Part shown: one piece after another, positions 28,800 through 55,701 of the stretch | Numbering within the stretch: the first letter of the stretch is position 1 | How the letters are laid out: the number at the start of each line of letters is the position of its first letter | Source of the DNA: Sulfurimonas sediminis | Lineage (GTDB): Bacteria; Campylobacterota; Campylobacteria; Campylobacterales; Sulfurimonadaceae | DNA length: 64,000 nt | Assembly (NCBI RefSeq): GCF_014905115.1 | Contig: NZ_CP041235.1 | Coordinates: 1,426,001 to 1,490,000 of the forward strand | Direction of reading: 5' to 3' | Program-made: the position numbers and the translations under genes | The notes under the pieces: model-generated | The model's database searches: none | Seen by the model: only the letters and a program-made list of their open reading frames with translations | Told to the model about the DNA's origin: nothing

Positions 28800-30611
28800 A
28801 TGAATTTAAAATCTTTGCAGATAAAAATTATCCTTATTTTTTCTCTTCCTGCCCTTGCATTACTTTACTTTTCCTATTCTTTGGTAAATGAAAACTATAT
28901 CAAGTATAAGAACAGTACTTCCTATGCATTCTCTGCAAAACAAACAAAAATTCTCAGTAAACTCATTCATAATTTACAGCTTGAAAGAGGACTGAGTGCA
29001 GGGTATCTTGTTTCAAAAGACGAAATAATCCGAAAAAATTTGGAAAAACAGTATATCCATACAGACAGTGCCTATCAGGATCTGATTCACTTTTCTAATG
29101 CATATCAGTATTTTAAAAAACAGTTTCATTCTATTACGGCAGTAAGAAGAAAAGTTCTTACAACACAAATCAGCTTTTGGGATGAAATGCAATACTATAA
29201 CTCCCTCAATAAAGAGCTGCTTCAGGCCATTACTGCACTGATGCATGATTTAGAATCAAAATCATATAACGGCAAAGCCCTTATTGAACTTCAAAAACTT
29301 AAAGAGTATTTGGGACAGGAAAGAGCGTATGTTTATAACCAGATACTCGCTCCAAAAAAAAATGAAAAGTATATACACTATATTCATCTTCTGCAGGAAA
29401 AAGAGAAAAAACTTCAGACTGTTTTTTACATATGTGCTTCCAAAAACACGCAAAATATTTTTAAACAACTCATACAAAAAGAGACTGTACAAAAAACAGC
29501 TGCCTTAAGAACAATGTTTTTTCAGGATAAACTCTCATCCAAAGAAGATGCAAAGATATGGTTTCAGACTGCTTCACAATACATTACACAACTTTACAAT
29601 GTGTCAAGCCACATTCTCAATACCATTGTAACCGAGGCCCTGCAGACACAAAAAGATATAAAACAGGTTTTCACATATACAATTATCTTATGGATTCTCT
29701 CTTTTATCTCTTTTTTTTTCTTCCTCTATTATATCAATGCCCTGATCAAAAAAGAGGACAAACTTCTTGCAAAAATACGTATTGCTTCGCATACATTCGA
29801 CTCACACGAGGCTATAGTCATTACTGACAAAAACGGTGTTGTTCTTGAAGTCAATAAATCTTTTACCAGAATTACAGGATATAAAGCAGATGAGATTATA
29901 GGACAGACGACTAAAATACTCAAATCAGGCAAACACACTAAAGAATTCTATGCTGACATGTGGCATCAGCTCCTTACATCCGGACAATGGAAAGGTGATA
30001 TTTACAACAAACGTAAAAACGGTGAAATAATAAACTTTATAGCACAGTTTTATGATATTTCAGATCTAAGAAATGCACAGGAAGAGGCTCAATATCAGGC
30101 AAACCATGATTTTCTTACAGGACTGATGAACAGAAAAGCCTTATTGCAAAGACTGCATGAAGAGAATGCAAAAGCCATCAGACATAACTTCATTCATGCC
30201 TTTTTATTTATTGATCTGGACAATTTCAAGCAGGTGAATGATACCTATGGTCATCATGTCGGAGATGAATTACTCATTCAGGTCTCACACAGACTGCGAA
30301 GTGTTTTAAGAGAAGAAGATATCCTTGCCAGAATAAGCGGCGATGAATTCACCATCATCTTAGTCAATATAGCAGACAGCAAAGAAGCAGCCAAAGAGTA
30401 TGCACAAAAAAAATGTCAAGCTATCATCAAAGCTCTTTCTGCGACATTTGTCATTGAAGGCAATGAAATTCATATTGGAGCAAGTATCGGTATCAAGATA
30501 TTTCCGGATGAAAAGCATAATATAGAAGACATAATGAATGATGCGGACAAAGCTATGTATGTTGCAAAGAAAAACGGAAAAAACAGTTGTGCTCTTTATG
30601 ATGAGGCATAA
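28800..30611 (+). CDS. Membrane NIT-PAS-GGDEF signalling protein
   Basis: 603 aa. Membrane helix about 7-26, a periplasmic region of roughly 260 residues with the NIT-domain hallmark LIHNLQLERGLSAGYLVSKD, second helix about 288-312 (YTIILWILSFISFFFFLYY). Then a PAS domain (about 335-435; AIVITDKNGVVLEVNKSFTRITGYKADEIIGQ) and a GGDEF domain (DFLTGLMNRKALL, DLDNFKQVNDTYGHHVGDELL). The signature is SGDEF in RISGDEFTIILV; SGDEF cyclases can be active. NIT domains are linked to nitrate/nitrite sensing, so a nitrate-responsive cyclase is plausible. Confidence 0.88.
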   Translation: MNLKSLQIKIILIFSLPALALLYFSYSLVNENYIKYKNSTSYAFSAKQTKILSKLIHNLQLERGLSAGYLVSKDEIIRKNLEKQYIHTDSAYQDLIHFSNAYQYFKKQFHSITAVRRKVLTTQISFWDEMQYYNSLNKELLQAITALMHDLESKSYNGKALIELQKLKEYLGQERAYVYNQILAPKKNEKYIHYIHLLQEKEKKLQTVFYICASKNTQNIFKQLIQKETVQKTAALRTMFFQDKLSSKEDAKIWFQTASQYITQLYNVSSHILNTIVTEALQTQKDIKQVFTYTIILWILSFISFFFFLYYINALIKKEDKLLAKIRIASHTFDSHEAIVITDKNGVVLEVNKSFTRITGYKADEIIGQTTKILKSGKHTKEFYADMWHQLLTSGQWKGDIYNKRKNGEIINFIAQFYDISDLRNAQEEAQYQANHDFLTGLMNRKALLQRLHEENAKAIRHNFIHAFLFIDLDNFKQVNDTYGHHVGDELLIQVSHRLRSVLREEDILARISGDEFTIILVNIADSKEAAKEYAQKKCQAIIKALSATFVIEGNEIHIGASIGIKIFPDEKHNIEDIMNDADKAMYVAKKNGKNSCALYDEA

Positions 30612-30614
30612 AAC

Positions 30615-32030
30615 CTACTTTACATACACAAAACTCTCAGGCATGACAGATCTGTATTTTGGTATGGTTTCTCCCAAAGAAGCATTTATGTATGTCGGGT
30701 CTGCCACAACATATCTTTGACCTGATACCTCTACACTCTCCCCTGCCATAGGTACATGTAAAGCAGTACTCATATGGTCTTTATACTTAACACCCACAAT
30801 ACCAATACCAAATAAGTCTTTAACCAAACGGGTATACAATACAGCTCTGTCCTCGCAATCTGATTTTTCATAATAAAGCGTTTCCTCTGCAAACATAACT
30901 TTTTCTCTACCAAACTGTTCCTGGTCACGCTCATATATAAAAGCTTTTTGTACAAAATGCAGTACAAAATCCAAAGCTTCACTTGCTTTTTTGTTCTCAG
31001 TATATTTCTTGATATCACTTGCTATGTCTTTATATGTCTCATATTCCAAAGGTGCATTGAAAAAAACTTTATATTCCACCTGAGGATATGTTTTCATAAA
31101 ATCAATAAGATTTTGGTTATACCGATAAGAAAAAGTGTAAACTTTTCCATGTTCTTTGAAAGAAACAGTTTTTGTTTGGATTTTTTTTGCAAGGAGAGGA
31201 AGTGTTTTTAACGTAAAATCAAGCGCTTTTGTTGCATTCGGATAATCATTTTTGTAAGTATATACTTTTGCAATATTTTCTTTGTTATATTTAGAAATGA
31301 CATAAAATTTTCTATTATCCAGGGTATAGTTTGGTGTAGAGTAGATCTTGCCTTTGACACTGTGAAGCAGAACTATATGTTTGTCTGCACCCAAAGCTAC
31401 GCGAACCCTGTAGCCAAGCTTATTCAACAAGAACCAGCTCAATAGTTTTTCATTATCCTGTGCAGGAAAAAGAGTATAGGAGAGTCTGTTTATTAAAAGA
31501 TAGACTCCCCAGTCATTAAGATGCATCTCTTTACATGTATTCTCAATCTCATACAAAAGGCCATCATAATCGCTTGTCGCTACAACACTGAAAAAATTCT
31601 CAATCCCCTTTTGTGTTCTGGGGTAAAAGTTGGCGTTTTTTATTTTTTTATCAACATCAAACCCCAAACTTGTTCCAAAAAATTCAAAAACTGTATTGTC
31701 AGCTTTTATTTTTTTTTCCTGAGGAGCGGATTTTTTCTCAGCAAAAGGTTTTATCTTTATCACTAAATTCGGACCGACACCTCGAACTTTTTTTTGATGC
31801 AACGCCGGCAAACTCTTTGGTTTTTTCTTTTTGTATAAGGGTGTTGAGATATACGCACTGTATTCTTCCCACTGCTGCTGAAGATATTTGTTGAATTCAC
31901 TGTCTTTTTTATCTTTGAAGCTGTTAAAAGATCCCGTCTGCACCTTTTTAAACTCTGCAAAACTCCCTGCATATACAGAACTTAAAAAAAGCGCTGTAAC
32001 AAGACTAAAACGGCCAAATTGATTGAACAA
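30615..32030 (-). CDS. Periplasmic transglutaminase-like protein coupled to flgH
   Basis: About 471 aa if it starts at the TTG at 32030, with GGGGGACG a few nt upstream and giving a signal peptide (FNQFGRFSLVTALFLSSVYAGSFAEF); longer ORF starts lie deep in flgH and would lose it. The C-terminal part resembles transglutaminase-like cysteine proteins: Cys in YEKSDCEDRAVLYTRL (about 390), His in HMSTALHV (about 420), Asp in YVVADPTYINAS (about 440). The middle is unrecognised. It overlaps flgH by 26 bp, suggesting coupled translation under the flgH promoter. Confidence 0.75.
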   Translation of the reverse strand: MFNQFGRFSLVTALFLSSVYAGSFAEFKKVQTGSFNSFKDKKDSEFNKYLQQQWEEYSAYISTPLYKKKKPKSLPALHQKKVRGVGPNLVIKIKPFAEKKSAPQEKKIKADNTVFEFFGTSLGFDVDKKIKNANFYPRTQKGIENFFSVVATSDYDGLLYEIENTCKEMHLNDWGVYLLINRLSYTLFPAQDNEKLLSWFLLNKLGYRVRVALGADKHIVLLHSVKGKIYSTPNYTLDNRKFYVISKYNKENIAKVYTYKNDYPNATKALDFTLKTLPLLAKKIQTKTVSFKEHGKVYTFSYRYNQNLIDFMKTYPQVEYKVFFNAPLEYETYKDIASDIKKYTENKKASEALDFVLHFVQKAFIYERDQEQFGREKVMFAEETLYYEKSDCEDRAVLYTRLVKDLFGIGIVGVKYKDHMSTALHVPMAGESVEVSGQRYVVADPTYINASLGETIPKYRSVMPESFVYVK

Positions 32031-32733
32031 TTTTCGTCCCCCATCCCTGTTTTGTAGCACGATCCATATCTCCCTCGGTTTTATACAATATTTTTGCATC
32101 ACTGATTTGTGTAGAGTTGATTCGGTTATATTGATCGATATCATATGGACGGATCACACCACTTAACTGAATTATCTGCTTCTGGTCATCTATCAAAATC
32201 TCTCTTTTTCCGGAAATATAATAATTTCCGTTTTTTAAAATTTTTACAATTCTTGCCGAAATGGTTGTTGTAAAACTTGCATCCTTTGTTGCACTTCCCG
32301 ATCCCTTATAGTTACTGTTTGATGTAGAGTTAAAACCTACATTCGTAAATCCGTTCAAGTCTGCTACTTTGGAGTTTACAGCAGCATTGAGACCTGTGCT
32401 TGAAAACAATCCCCCTCCAAGTGTACTTGTATCAGCCTCTTGCAACTGCTTTGTACCGGTATTTGAACTTTGTGCAGTTTCTGAAATAACTACAGTTACA
32501 ATATCACTGACATGCATAGCTTTGTGATCTGAAAAAAGAGGATTTTCTCCCTGTCCAAATATACTGCCGGTAGATGCAAAGTCTTGTTGATCTTCTTTTG
32601 CAGGCATCTGCTCAACATATGCAGGCGGTTCAAAGTTTATTTCGGGGTCGGTAAGGTTGGCCGTACATCCATTAAAAAACATCATTATCGAAGGTACTAG
32701 TACAAAAGTAGCTAATTTCATTTTTTTCATCAA
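32005..32733 (-). CDS. flgH: Flagellar L-ring protein FlgH
   Basis: 242 aa lipoprotein (lipobox MFFNGC, C23) forming the outer-membrane L ring around the rod. Family motifs include GSIFGQGENPLFSDHKAMHVSDIVTVVISE, FTTTISARIVKILKNGNYYISGKREI and the C-terminal GVIRPYDIDQYNRINSTQISDAKILY. No other ring or rod gene is adjacent, consistent with scattered flagellar genes. AAGGG precedes the ATG and a sigma54-type promoter lies about 30 nt upstream. Confidence 0.95.
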   Translation of the reverse strand: MMKKMKLATFVLVPSIMMFFNGCTANLTDPEINFEPPAYVEQMPAKEDQQDFASTGSIFGQGENPLFSDHKAMHVSDIVTVVISETAQSSNTGTKQLQEADTSTLGGGLFSSTGLNAAVNSKVADLNGFTNVGFNSTSNSNYKGSGSATKDASFTTTISARIVKILKNGNYYISGKREILIDDQKQIIQLSGVIRPYDIDQYNRINSTQISDAKILYKTEGDMDRATKQGWGTKIVQSIWPF

Positions 32734-32760: not shown

Positions 32761-32777
32761 TAGCAATTTTAGTTCCA
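32761..32777 (-). promoter_or_regulatory. Sigma54 (RpoN) promoter of flgH
   Basis: The complement reads TGGAACTAAAATTGCTA: a -24 TGGAAC and a -12 TTGCTA with the required spacing, matching the epsilonproteobacterial RpoN consensus (TTGGAAC-N5-TTGCTT). Transcription would start about 15-20 nt before the ATG. Rod, ring and hook genes in Campylobacter and Helicobacter are RpoN class II genes, in agreement. Confidence 0.75.
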
Positions 32778-33244: not shown

Positions 33245-33249
33245 GGCTT
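33231..33249 (-). terminator. Hairpin with U tract ending mutS7
   Basis: AAGCCTT (33231-33237) pairs with AAGGCTT (33243-33249), loop 5 nt. Read on the minus strand it is followed by TTTTTT, as in an intrinsic terminator for the 1-kb-protein gene; it overlaps the ends of both convergent CDSs. Confidence 0.55.
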
Positions 33250-36200
33250 ACCAATCATCCAGGACGAAGCCTTTTGGTTCGTCTTCTTCTTTCTTTTTCA
33301 CTTCTGTATTTTTATTTATTTCAGGTTCTTGCACTTTTTTGACTTCAGCTTTACGCATCTGCTCTTCAAACTGCAATTCAAGCCCTTTACTCGTCATGAT
33401 AAAACCGTTTACATGTAACTTGCCGTCGTGAATCTGTTGGTGATGATCTTTACACAAAGGCACGAGATTATGCTTGTTGTCTTTGTGAAAATGCCCTATA
33501 AATCCGGCACCGTCAGCCAATGACTTTTGCGAGATATGATGCACATCTTCTGCCACCGCACCACAGATAACACATTTGGTCACATAAAGCTCTTTGTTAT
33601 ACTTGGATTTTTTCTTCTTCACAAGCAGTTCAAGCTCATCATAATCATTGGCAAGACGTTTTCTGATGGCATTGGCATTTTCCAAAAATTCATTGTCCAT
33701 ATGGAGTGATTTTGCAAACTCCAGTCCATAGATACTGCTGCCACTTCCAGCTTGAAGCACACGGTTAAATATCAGCTTGTCATTTTCTTCATCATACTCC
33801 ACACTCAGGTGCAAGTCTACAACATTGTCAAGCGAGGTAATTTCATCCATCGTTGAGAGTTGATGCAGGTGCGTTGCAAACAAAAACAGACATCGGGTAT
33901 GTGAGAGCTTTTGTATGGCTGCGGCGACAATGGCAACGCCTGAGAGCGTTTCTGTACCATGGCTTATCTCATCACCCAGAACAAGTGACTTTACGGTTGA
34001 ACGGTTGAAAATATTTTTGAGTTCGAGCATCTCCACTGCAAAAGTAGAGAGCCCTTTTGCCAAATTGTCACGTGATACGATACGTGTAAAAAGAGAGTCA
34101 AAAATGCTGAATTTCATCACCGCAGCACTCACAAAAAAACCTGACTGCGCCATCAATACCGCAATACCTATACTCTTCATCAAAGAAGATTTTCCGCTTG
34201 AATTTATACCGTATAAAAGGACTCCGTTGATGTCATGTCCGTCATGCACAGCCACATCAAGCATCACCGTTTTTGGATGCGGCAGATCCATATAGTCACG
34301 TTCTCCCATCACAATATCATTGGGAACATACAGCCCGCCCCGTTCCTGTACTTCTATCAGAGGGTGACGCAGCTGCATAATTTGCATAAAGTTTTCATCC
34401 TCTTTAGTATCGACTATCATCGGTCTTGAATGTTTGTACTCCTGTGCCACTTTTGAAGAACTTACACCTACATCCAAATCTGCCACATAGCTGATAACTC
34501 TGTCAAAAAGAAGAGAATAGCGTCGCTCAAACAGTGCCTGGAGCTGTATATAACGCTCTTTTACCAGCACAACAATTTTACGGCGGTTTTTCATAATATT
34601 GTCAGAGAGTTTATCGGTAAAAGCCGAAGTGATTTTGACATTGTTAGTCAGTTTTTTTACATTGAAATCTGCAAACTCTTCGCGTTTTTTAAATTCACTC
34701 TCAATGAGAGAAAACCTGTTTTTGCTCAAAGAGATGTAGTAGCCCTCTTTTTCTAAAAGTCCCAGGCTTACAAGTTTTGTCGAACTGTTGGCATTGACGC
34801 TGCTCAGCAGTGCCTCAATTTTGTGTATTATATCTTCAAAAGCAACCATCATAACGGCATTTTCTTTTACCAGCGTATCTATGGCTTCATCGACACCGCT
34901 CATCAAAAAGTTTTCATCTACCGTTGCATTGGTAAAACGCCGTGATATGTCCAAATCTATCGTTTTTGTTATATCACGAAGAAACTCTTCCACTTCGCTT
35001 TCATGAAAAGGTGTTTTTTGGATTTTATGTTTTTTGACATAGAGCATCAACTCTTTGACACTTACCATAGAGTCATACATGTGATTCATCTCAAACGGAT
35101 GCAGTCTGCCGAGGCTTAAACGGCGTGCAAGCCTCTGTATATCATATACTCCCCGCATCATCTCATCCAAATATCTTACATGGGAAGAGACCCGTTCTAT
35201 CAAATTGTACCGACGTTCGAGTTCATTCTCTTCCATTATAGGGTTGAGCAATCTCTCTTTTAAGAGTCTTTTTCCGATAGCCGTCGCACTTTTGTCAAGC
35301 ATTTTTAAAAGTGTGAACTCTTTTCTGTCTTTTGAAATAATGCCCATCTGCTCCAGTGCATTGTTACCCAGATACATAAAACGACGATTGTCTATAATCC
35401 GCGGCATCGCCATCTTTTGTACGATGTGATAATCATGTTCTATCACAAAATCAATAAGAATCGCCAAAGCTTCCGTAATCATTGGCGAGCGTTCCAAATC
35501 CAAATGCTCTATGGGTGAAAGCAAAGATTGAATCTGATACACCTCTTTAAAAAGCTCGTTTTGATACTCTATTTTTGCCCGTTTGTTGTTTACAGAATAA
35601 TGATAATGTTCAGGAATTTCCAAATACTGCATCACATGACGCTGATCATCAATTCCATCTAAAAAAGTCACAACTATTTCACTGGTTCGATAAACATTCA
35701 AAAGGTTAAAAATTTCATCAAGTGCATACGACGGGTCTTCACTCGTTCCATGTGTCTCATACAACCAGGTTTTTCCCGTGGTTACATCTATGGCAGCGTA
35801 ACCAACCGTATAAATATCACGAAATTTGTCAATCAAAATAGAAACAATGTAGTTATCGTCATTATCAACAATGTGTTCAAAGTTGGTACCAGGGGAAACT
35901 ATCTGGGAGATATACCGGCTGATTTTAGGAGGATTGCCTTTTTGTTTAACGACTATAACCGTATACTTTTGTTCTTGAATCAAACGGTTTAAATAGCGTT
36001 CAAAAGAGACCGCAGGCACACCCGCAAGCAGAGGATTTTTTTCAGAATTTTCTATTATTTTTTTATTTTTTTTTGTAAGTTGTATGTTTAGAAGCTCGGC
36101 AATCTCTTTTGCTTTTCCAATCTGTTCTTCATCATTATTGACTTCATACACTTCAAAAAAAGTGCCGATTTCCATAAAAACAACAGTATCTTTACCATAT

Positions 36201-36292
36201 TTTTGTTCAAAAAACCGTTGCAAATCAAAATATACCTGCGTTAAAAGTTTCTCTTTATTGTTTAATATTTTATCAACTTCTGATGATTGCAT
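33248..36292 (-). CDS. MutS7-family mismatch protein with C-terminal HNH nuclease
   Basis: 1014 aa. The N-terminal mismatch-binding domain has GTFFEVYE (G43-T-F45-F-E47), corresponding to the G-x-F-x-E motif of MutS1. Connector, lever and clamp follow, then the ATPase with Walker [15 protein letters not shown] (about 690) and [12 protein letters not shown]. An HNH domain begins around 905: CVICG...VHHISQ...[17 protein letters not shown]. MutS fused to HNH defines MutS7, known from epsilonproteobacteria, giant viruses and octocoral mitochondria (mtMutS). One polypeptide may recognise mismatches and nick DNA, replacing MutL/MutH. Single gene; no MutL in the window. Confidence 0.93.
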
Positions 36293-54394: not shown

Positions 54395-55701
54395 AGGTAA
54401 ATCCCACGAAAAATAAAACAAATCTTAATCAATATAGTTTGATTCAATCAATTGAACACTAAAATCATCACGATAAAGAGCATTTCTTTTAATATCTGCC
54501 ATTGTAGTTTTACCGGTTAGGAGTACCTTTTTATCTTTGTTCTCATTTAAAAACAACTGATAAAGATTAACAGTAAAACTTCTAAGAATAGCTATAGAGA
54601 AAGGCTCTTTATATGCTATATGGTCATCTTCTTCAGTAAGCATATCTAAGTGATAGTGATATGTTTCCACTCTCCAATGTTGCAGTATCTTTTGAAGAAA
54701 CTCTTTTGCAGTTGTTTTAAAGTTAGCCATTAAATATTGAGTTGAAATTGTAACTTCACCAGTCTGTGCATTTGTTAATGTTTTCGTCACTTTAATGAGT
54801 GATTGAATATTTTGAAAGTTCTCATGATACATAACTAAATCAGCACTTTTATTTTGAAAAACTTCTACTTTTCGAGAGACTCTTTTGTTGTTTTCAGTTA
54901 AATAGCTATCTTCATCATCAACTCTATCTGTAGGCTGATTAAACTCTTCTATGGTCTTTATAGCTTTCTCTTTGAGGTGTTTCTGGTTATCTTTGAGTTT
55001 TGCTATATATCTGTTACCTTGCTCATCAATAGTGTTGAGAATCTCTGATTGAGTAAGCAGTGCATCAAAGGAAAATATCTGTCCTTCATTGCTAAAAATA
55101 TTATCGTTTAAAACCTCTTTGAGTGCAGTAATTTCGCTACTCTTATTTTTATCTAAAAACTTGTGAGCAAACACTATTTTTATATCTTTATCCAAGATAT
55201 TTAGTATTGCTTTATGTCTTTCCTGTGTGTATTGACCATTCACGTCGCTACCTCTCAGCCACTTCCCGTCAATAGCAATATTTTCTTGTGCAATGAATGG
55301 AAAAAAGAACTCTCTAAATACTTTTTCCAAAGCATTATTATCTGTGTTTATCAATAAACGATGATATGTTGATTTGGAAGGAATCGTTATCTCTTCTTTA
55401 TCAAAAATCTCTTTGAGTATTGCATTGTCTTTGTTATATATCATCCATGAAAATATATCCTTAAAAGTTGTATTTCCTTTGATAAGTGCAAAAAGTGTCA
55501 TGAAAAGAACTTCGTGCAATGGATATTCTATCTTCCCTGTATCTACTCTATAGTCTGGGATACTTTTTAGCGATTCAAGTAAGGCTTTTGTGCGTGTTAA
55601 TTTGATGGTAAACTCCTTGTTTTAGGAGTCTAAGCAATATTTCTTCCAGTTCTTTTGAATCTATTGATTAAGATTTATTTTATTTTTCGTGGGATTTACC
55701 T
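54395..55701 (-). mobile_element. ISAs1-family insertion sequence, 1307 bp
   Basis: Bounded by inverted repeats starting AGGTAAATCCCACGAAAAAT (54395 onwards and complement from 55701), about 40 bp with one mismatch, and by 11-bp direct repeats ATATCTTTACT at 54384-54394 and 55702-55712, a target-site duplication. One transposase gene fills it; its stop codon lies inside the left inverted repeat. Confidence 0.9.
54425..55606 (-). CDS. ISAs1-family DDE transposase, probable ATC start
   Basis: About 393 aa when read from ATC at 55606, 6 nt after AAGGAG; the first canonical start (TTG at 55519) would drop the conserved N-terminus KSIPDYRVDTGKIEYPLHEVL. Catalytic D in IAIDGKWLRG, D in FSFDALLTQSEIL, and E in HWRVETYHYHLDMLTEEDD, all family signatures. 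No internal stop or frameshift, so it may still be functional. The rare start could keep expression low. Confidence 0.9.
   Translation of the reverse strand: MKLTRTKALLESLKSIPDYRVDTGKIEYPLHEVLFMTLFALIKGNTTFKDIFSWMIYNKDNAILKEIFDKEEITIPSKSTYHRLLINTDNNALEKVFREFFFPFIAQENIAIDGKWLRGSDVNGQYTQERHKAILNILDKDIKIVFAHKFLDKNKSSEITALKEVLNDNIFSNEGQIFSFDALLTQSEILNTIDEQGNRYIAKLKDNQKHLKEKAIKTIEEFNQPTDRVDDEDSYLTENNKRVSRKVEVFQNKSADLVMYHENFQNIQSLIKVTKTLTNAQTGEVTISTQYLMANFKTTAKEFLQKILQHWRVETYHYHLDMLTEEDDHIAYKEPFSIAILRSFTVNLYQLFLNENKDKKVLLTGKTTMADIKRNALYRDDFSVQLIESNYID

Follow-up and report, generated by a model that had tools for sequence, protein, structure and literature searches.

A predicted transglutaminase-fold protein gene overlapping flgH behind a sigma54-type promoter box in Sulfurimonas and related genera

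We analyzed a 64,000-nucleotide stretch of the one-contig, 2.32-Mb genome of Sulfurimonas sediminis (NZ_CP041235.1, positions 1,426,001 to 1,490,000; the window, whose numbering is used below unless another locus is named). In this stretch flgH, the gene for the flagellar L-ring lipoprotein, is overlapped on the minus strand by a gene for a protein with a predicted transglutaminase-like fold, which we call TGL (residues of its product are numbered in a 471-aa scheme). The two genes keep one register among their relatives, a sigma54-type promoter box stands before flgH, and a Cys-His-Asp triad in TGL is conserved. These findings suggest that an enzyme not described before acts at the site where the flagellum passes through the cell envelope. 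We propose that, in the Sulfurimonas family, flgH and TGL are a flagellar unit of two genes under sigma54 control, in which translational coupling would supply a periplasmic hydrolase to the site of P- and L-ring assembly, and we give this full explanation a probability of about 0.4. A preliminary description of the same DNA, made from its letters alone, had pointed to the overlap and had stated that no flagellar role of such a protein was known. We likewise found no description of the flgH-TGL pair, or of an enzyme made together with the L ring, in the open-licence full-text literature.

TGL overlaps flgH in a conserved register

As determined by Pfam and NCBIfam searches and by translation, flgH occupies positions 32005-32730 of the minus strand and starts with the ATG at 32730, one codon inside the boundary (32733) of the preliminary description. 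Its product matched Pfam FlgH (E 9.5e-53; 178.8 bits, cut-off 27) and NCBIfam NF001303 (340 bits, cut-off 288), and at the level of these family matches the identity of the upstream gene is certain. Inspection of the translation revealed a lipobox, FNGC (FNGCTAN), near the N terminus; part of the published record indicates that an FlgH lipobox is not universal within the phylum.

The frame of TGL is open over positions 30615-32144 of the minus strand and ends at 30615. The nearest named relatives of TGL come mostly from Sulfurimonas metagenome-assembled genomes (MAGs), with protein identities of up to 92%. We fetched 80 loci, the best of at least 578 relatives, which lean to the closest ones, and compared start codons in 78 of them, excluding one with no flgH on its contig (L155) and one in another frame (L183). 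A TTG at 32030, which would give a 26-nt overlap and a protein of 471 aa, has a counterpart in only 15 of the 78 relatives, and 35 of them have no ATG, GTG or TTG at all between codon -5 and about codon +28. Ten codons upstream of the TTG site, a start codon was found in 73 of these same-register relatives (70 GTG, 3 ATG) and was absent in five (L117, L154, L164, L179 and L185). The GTG is formed from an flgH Arg codon and the base that follows it. At this site CGT is used in 71 of 79 loci, whereas it accounts for 92 of the 374 Arg codons elsewhere in flgH, and the overlap start codon is conserved above the expectation from codon usage. By inspection of the window, a Shine-Dalgarno-like GGGAG precedes the GTG by ~9 nt, inside flgH. 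Because of the conserved start codon 10 codons upstream and the retention of CGT, the GTG at 32060 is the likelier start, and the TTG at 32030 the less likely one. With this start, TGL (30615-32060, minus strand) probably encodes 481 aa, with a signal peptide and a transglutaminase-like fold, and overlaps the 3' end of flgH by 56 nt (32005-32060). The overlap itself therefore stands as first described, and its earlier size of 26 bp gives way to a probable 56 nt.

The offset between the two frames is identical in 78 of 79 loci. Since the register is the same in these loci and the GTG is kept, an overlap by chance was ruled out. In five genomes of the genus g85 (L100-L104), TGL lies behind flgH without overlap, with a gap between the genes. 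In one Sulfurimonas genome without a TGL match (G020; L074 5090-5890), flgH has CAC in place of CGT, so that the start is lost, and inspection revealed after flgH only a short signal-peptide-like frame remnant, which we regard as a relic of the pair.

Conservation of the gene pair

The pairing singled out by the preliminary description was borne out among relatives. We found flgH directly upstream of TGL in 79 of the 80 best relatives, the remaining locus (L155) being cut by a contig end. In a genus sample of 25 genomes, flgH was present in 24 and TGL in 23, where it always lay behind flgH (23 of the 24 flgH-bearing genomes; in G008 the pair is split over contigs). The exceptions are G012, which lacks both genes, and G020, which lacks TGL. 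TGL was also absent from three tested g22 genomes without FlhA.

A family sample of 61 genomes gave 28 matched genomes, of which G112 and G330 were set aside as MltC-like matches. This left 26 genomes with TGL: in 24 it adjoins flgH, and in two (G343 and G354) contig breaks prevent a decision. An order sample of 298 genomes gave 31 matched genomes, five of which (G112, G054, G067, G213 and G242) matched only through an MltC-like protein, leaving TGL in 26; flgH was found in 247 and both genes in 23. Conservation of the pair extends through the genus and into several related genera.

A sigma54-type box upstream of flgH

Pattern searching and comparison across relatives identified a sigma54 (-24/-12) promoter-like site, TGGAACTAAAATTGCT, upstream of flgH at 32762-32777 on the minus strand. 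Within the window alone the pattern is barely above chance, with six occurrences against 2.3 expected, a number reached by 3 of 100 shuffles. On that evidence the site was unconvincing, and we accepted it only after comparison across relatives. All 77 regions upstream of flgH that were compared contain a box with 9 or more of the 11 consensus positions, against ~0.2 expected from mononucleotide shuffles; 76 of the boxes match at 10 positions and one at 9. The 77 regions include the window, and four loci were dropped: L120 and L166, which did not match the lipobox expression, L177, which has too little upstream DNA, and L155.

The box was also present, at 9 positions or more, in 16 of 18 family loci that lack TGL (L195 has none and L206 reaches 8), which indicates that it belongs to flgH. 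All five g85 loci retain it before flgH. Taken together with the overlap, from which translational coupling is deduced, these data suggest that flgH and TGL are probably co-transcribed and translationally coupled. Of the shared sigma54-type promoter claimed earlier, the box is thus confirmed and joint transcription is probable, with a reservation for g85 that is given below.

Export, triad and predicted fold of TGL

By eye, the translation of TGL begins with a Sec-type signal peptide (31968-32060, minus strand) that ends VYA/GS, with predicted cleavage after ...SSVYA. The signal agrees with the earlier claim that the protein is exported, and a periplasmic location would follow from it. A charged segment (31842-31967) next to the signal resembles the N terminus of Campylobacterota MltC-like lytic transglycosylases. 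In hhalign, residues 10-63, which take in part of the signal peptide, matched the MltC-like profile with 95% probability (E 1.7e-8); the profile has 17 rows, including two truncated ones of 7 and 103 aa. Model and structure matches delimit two folded domains behind this segment, the first at residues 108-302 (31125-31709), without a conserved Cys, and the second at residues 306-471 (30618-31115).

We aligned 70 proteins, the window's and those of 69 of the 80 fetched loci. Left out were L119, L137, L142, L148, L152, L155, L163, L164 and L178, together with L182 and L183, in which the query match is broken. The aligned relatives are mostly ~50% identical to the window's TGL. The triad named in the preliminary description is conserved in its order: the presumed catalytic Cys392 (codon at 30855-30857) in 69 of 70 proteins, and His419 (30774-30776) and Asp444 of a DPT motif (30699-30701) in all 70. 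In L186 (842-2257) Ser replaces the catalytic Cys (SDSEDR) and the rest is retained; either this variant is inactive or the MAG sequence contains an error. The ratio of nonsynonymous to synonymous substitution rates (dN/dS) was 0.08-0.18 in 11 of 12 chosen pairs that yielded a value, showing that TGL is under purifying selection.

An AlphaFold model built on the 70 aligned sequences had a mean predicted local distance difference test (pLDDT) score of 89.3 and a predicted template modeling (pTM) score of 0.88. In VIA-align, residues 318-471 matched LapG with Z scores of 9.6-10.9 over 130-145 residues at 13-15% identity; the row at 10.9 is chain E of 4u65, which we take to be LapG from the record title. 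The same residues matched Streptococcus pyogenes TglA (Z 9.0), transglutaminases (up to 8.7), PNGase (8.2), PeiW (8.2) and PeiP (7.8). Residues 318-471 are thus predicted to adopt a transglutaminase-like cysteine-hydrolase fold whose nearest solved structure is LapG. Searches of solved structures by sequence alone, with a single sequence or a profile, gave nothing useful, none of the solved structures found spans the full length of TGL, and a viral structure library gave two marginal matches.

Modeled alone, the first domain (residues 108-302) reached a pLDDT of 91.2. It matched the same fold group weakly, with LapG at Z 4.6, followed mostly by Rad4, PNGase, N-acetyltransferases and vasohibins. 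Foldseek with this domain alone returned nothing at E 0.001 or below, and a profile comparison of the two domains detected no internal duplication (hhalign probability 0.2%). The first domain may be a degenerate copy of the transglutaminase-like domain; we keep this reading conditional because the hint of duplication comes from structure, with a Z score of at most 4.6.

Family models were also compared. Pfam Transglut_core (PF01841) scored 12.8 bits against the window's TGL (cut-off 23) and gave matches at E up to 1 in 50 of the 70 aligned proteins, the best at 5.8e-4. For PF04473 the window protein had no match at E 1, and one homologue outside the flgH-linked group exceeds the cut-off. The LapG-type model, Peptidase_C93 (BTLCP), and the SLT domain likewise had no match in the window's TGL at E up to 1. 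On these results the window protein was not placed in the Transglut_core, C93 or C71 family. A pseudomurein-binding repeat (PMBR) match of 15.5 bits, below the cut-off of 24.9, was dropped as a sign of wall binding.

Distant homologues and origin

In seven genomes of the order sample we found TGL homologues that lie away from flgH. A tblastn search with two FlgH proteins found no flgH in the fetched stretches around them (L061-L068), several of which lie on short contigs; the TGL match reaches the contig end in L067 and L068. In three of the seven (L061, L062 and L064) the distant TGL adjoins the gene of an LPP20 lipoprotein that exceeds the Pfam cut-off. L062 and L064 contain a second small lipoprotein with a weak or no LPP20 match, and in L061 an MltC-like lytic transglycosylase also stands beside TGL. 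One or more LPP20 lipoproteins with an MltC-like lytic transglycosylase, a TGL homologue or both form a recurring Campylobacterota cluster (L061 5588-8808, L062 988-3828, L064 5133-7492, L069 5636-7940, L070 5613-7883 and L072 4873-6675), and G165, a genome without an FlhA match, contains such a cluster too.

The genome searches gave ten weak matches at the N terminus, nine of which are MltC-like SLT proteins, seven with an SLT domain by Pfam (1.6e-22 or better) and two, in G318 and G330, through a match to the MltC-like query. The tenth, G190:C364, adjoins another TGL-like match and is apparently part of a broken TGL; G190, whose genome is 82% complete, has no FlhA match.

In a tree of 36 chosen rows, which do not include L068, a branch with 100/98 support separates all 30 flgH-linked rows from six outsider rows. 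On the simplest reading, an envelope enzyme gene probably moved once behind flgH and was later lost in some lineages; the direction of this move depends on where the tree is rooted.

Proposed role and alternatives

In the mechanism that we propose, ribosomes ending flgH would probably be passed to TGL through the 56-nt overlap, so that the enzyme would be made together with the L-ring lipoprotein. TGL would enter the periplasm by the Sec route, with an N-terminal segment of the MltC-like type, a possibly degenerate domain that may bind a substrate or partner, and the intact Cys-His-Asp domain. Most likely it would hydrolyze an amide or isopeptide bond, and its substrate would be either the stem peptides of peptidoglycan or a protein linked to the wall or the outer membrane. 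Acting where the P and L rings are built, it might clear or release the wall for the bushing. A more specific version, in which TGL is a dedicated L-ring hydrolase derived from the LPP20/MltC module, encoded on one overlapping mRNA with flgH, and cuts peptidoglycan or protein links locally for ring seating, is put forward only tentatively.

We favor local hydrolysis of wall or envelope because lipoprotein or wall-enzyme genes neighbor the distant TGLs in three of seven genomes, the N-terminal segment is like that of wall-cutting enzymes, and the FlgJ frame of the host has 118 aa. The FlgJ rod-binding match lies within this open frame, which is too short for a fused wall hydrolase. To our knowledge, how flagella open the wall in bacteria with a hydrolase-less FlgJ is poorly understood. 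If the specific version is right, a lineage with such an FlgJ would open its wall with TGL. FlgJ-type flagellar hydrolases, which like the proposed TGL open the wall for an axial structure, are glucosaminidases, with another fold and chemistry, and TGL is linked to the L ring rather than the rod. The MltC-like enzymes of the LPP20 clusters, within which L061, L062 and L064 carry TGL homologues, share the N-terminal segment with TGL but differ from it in having an SLT domain. PeiW and PeiP, which match TGL structurally, provide a related fold that acts on a cell-wall isopeptide bond, according to part of PMC10318531; they are archaeal wall enzymes, and the pseudomurein-binding repeat score of TGL is far under the cut-off. 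The motors of Campylobacter jejuni are described in part of PMC11870540 as having no visible peptidoglycan inside.

The preliminary description had left open whether TGL opens the wall or crosslinks proteins. The contexts of its homologues support envelope or peptidoglycan work, and crosslinking is one possibility among others for a protein whose nearest fold is a hydrolase. For free-living Campylobacterota, the conserved overlapping pair offers a single gene, a single residue and a defined site, the L ring, for study, and it suggests a route by which an envelope enzyme can be drawn into a flagellar regulon.

Several observations weigh against our proposal. TGL had no match in 224 of the 247 flgH-bearing genomes of the order sample and in 18 of the 43 of the family sample. 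Because flagella are built without it in these genomes, TGL is no core flagellar part and must be helpful rather than essential, or be replaced elsewhere. In three g85 loci (L100, L101 and L102) the gap between flgH and TGL contains TTGCTATAAT, presumably a sigma70-like box, and sole control of TGL by RpoN may not be universal. The window's TGL matched no Pfam or NCBIfam family above the cut-off, and Foldseek against solved structures gave nothing at E 0.001 or below, the best match being a putative cysteine protease from Cytophaga (E 2.5e-3). With regard to the link with the LPP20/MltC module, a search with the MltC-like query protein found no match in the genome that contains the window, and in the loci seen the flgH-linked TGL group lies outside LPP20/MltC neighborhoods. 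Finally, two genomes, G035 and G165 (97% and 99% complete), carry a TGL homologue and have no flgH or FlhA match, so the original role of TGL was probably not flagellar.

One alternative, which we consider rather unlikely, is that TGL is a LapG-like processing protease that cuts a specific outer-membrane or periplasmic protein without acting on the wall. Its target might be FlgH, a basal-disk or LPP20 lipoprotein, or a surface adhesin, and cutting would time ring maturation or adhesin release during flagellar assembly. LapG is a periplasmic cysteine protease that acts on an adhesin retained in the outer membrane. It is the closest solved fold (Z 9.6-10.9) for about residues 318-471, it shares the Cys-His-Asp triad and, if TGL is exported as predicted, the periplasmic location, and LPP20 lipoproteins adjoin distant TGLs in three of seven genomes. 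However, identity to LapG is only ~15%, the window protein has no LapG-type Pfam match at E 1 or below, and TGL differs from LapG/BTLCP in its further folded domain, its N-terminal segment and its position with flgH. The convergent GGDEF-domain neighbor of TGL also lacks an EAL match, an observation that covers the neighbors only, as no genome-wide search for LapA or LapD was made.

Unlikely, too, is the view that TGL is a general envelope enzyme without a flagellar role, which became transcriptionally attached to flgH once and stayed because the overlap makes separation costly. The two genomes with homologues and no flgH or FlhA match speak for it, the tree agrees with a linkage that arose once, and overlapping genes are hard to separate. 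The g85 genomes, in contrast, retain the adjacency without the overlap, and a general enzyme is unlikely to have been left behind a flagellar sigma54 promoter alone. The absence of TGL from G012 and from the three FlhA-less g22 genomes also argues against a general role, but joint deletion also explains it.

The remaining two readings are improbable. TGL shares its triad and fold with the transglutaminase-like superfamily (Z up to 8.7) and might be a true crosslinker, acting between ring subunits or between ring and wall; we consider this highly unlikely. The best structural match is a hydrolase, and hydrolases are the commoner type among periplasmic bacterial proteins with this fold. Least probable of all is a mainly structural motor accessory with two domains as a scaffold: the first domain lacks a conserved Cys, one of 70 relatives (L186) has Ser for the catalytic Cys, and accessory motor proteins are common in the phylum according to parts of PMC11756786 and PMC11870540, but the triad is otherwise intact, in 69 of 70 proteins with identities to the window's TGL of mostly ~50%.

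Lineage-specific additions to the motor or L ring, as described in parts of PMC11756786, PMC11870540 and PMC10655999, include FlgP/FapH, PflA-D and FlgV, and in Salmonella YecR at the L ring; none of these is described there as a transglutaminase-fold enzyme. The corresponding parts of PMC9321776, PMC11870540, PMC11756786, PMC10318531 and PMC10655999 make no mention of a transglutaminase-fold protein with flgH.

Other features

The convergent neighbor of TGL (28800-30611, plus strand) encodes a putative diguanylate cyclase with NIT, PAS and GGDEF domains, the first being a nitrate/nitrite-sensing domain; a Pfam search gave no EAL match. Upstream of flgH, the minus strand encodes a MutS-family protein (33248-36292) with an HNH-like C-terminal region (HNH_2, 20.9 against a cut-off of 21), which we take to resemble the MutS7 type. 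Outside the window, the FlhA match of the same genome (G000:C1:1631096-1633128) falls in two overlapping pieces of 90 and 705 aa in different frames, and the 5' end of flhA may contain a frameshift or a sequence error. A DDE transposase is encoded at 54425-55519 on the minus strand of the window.

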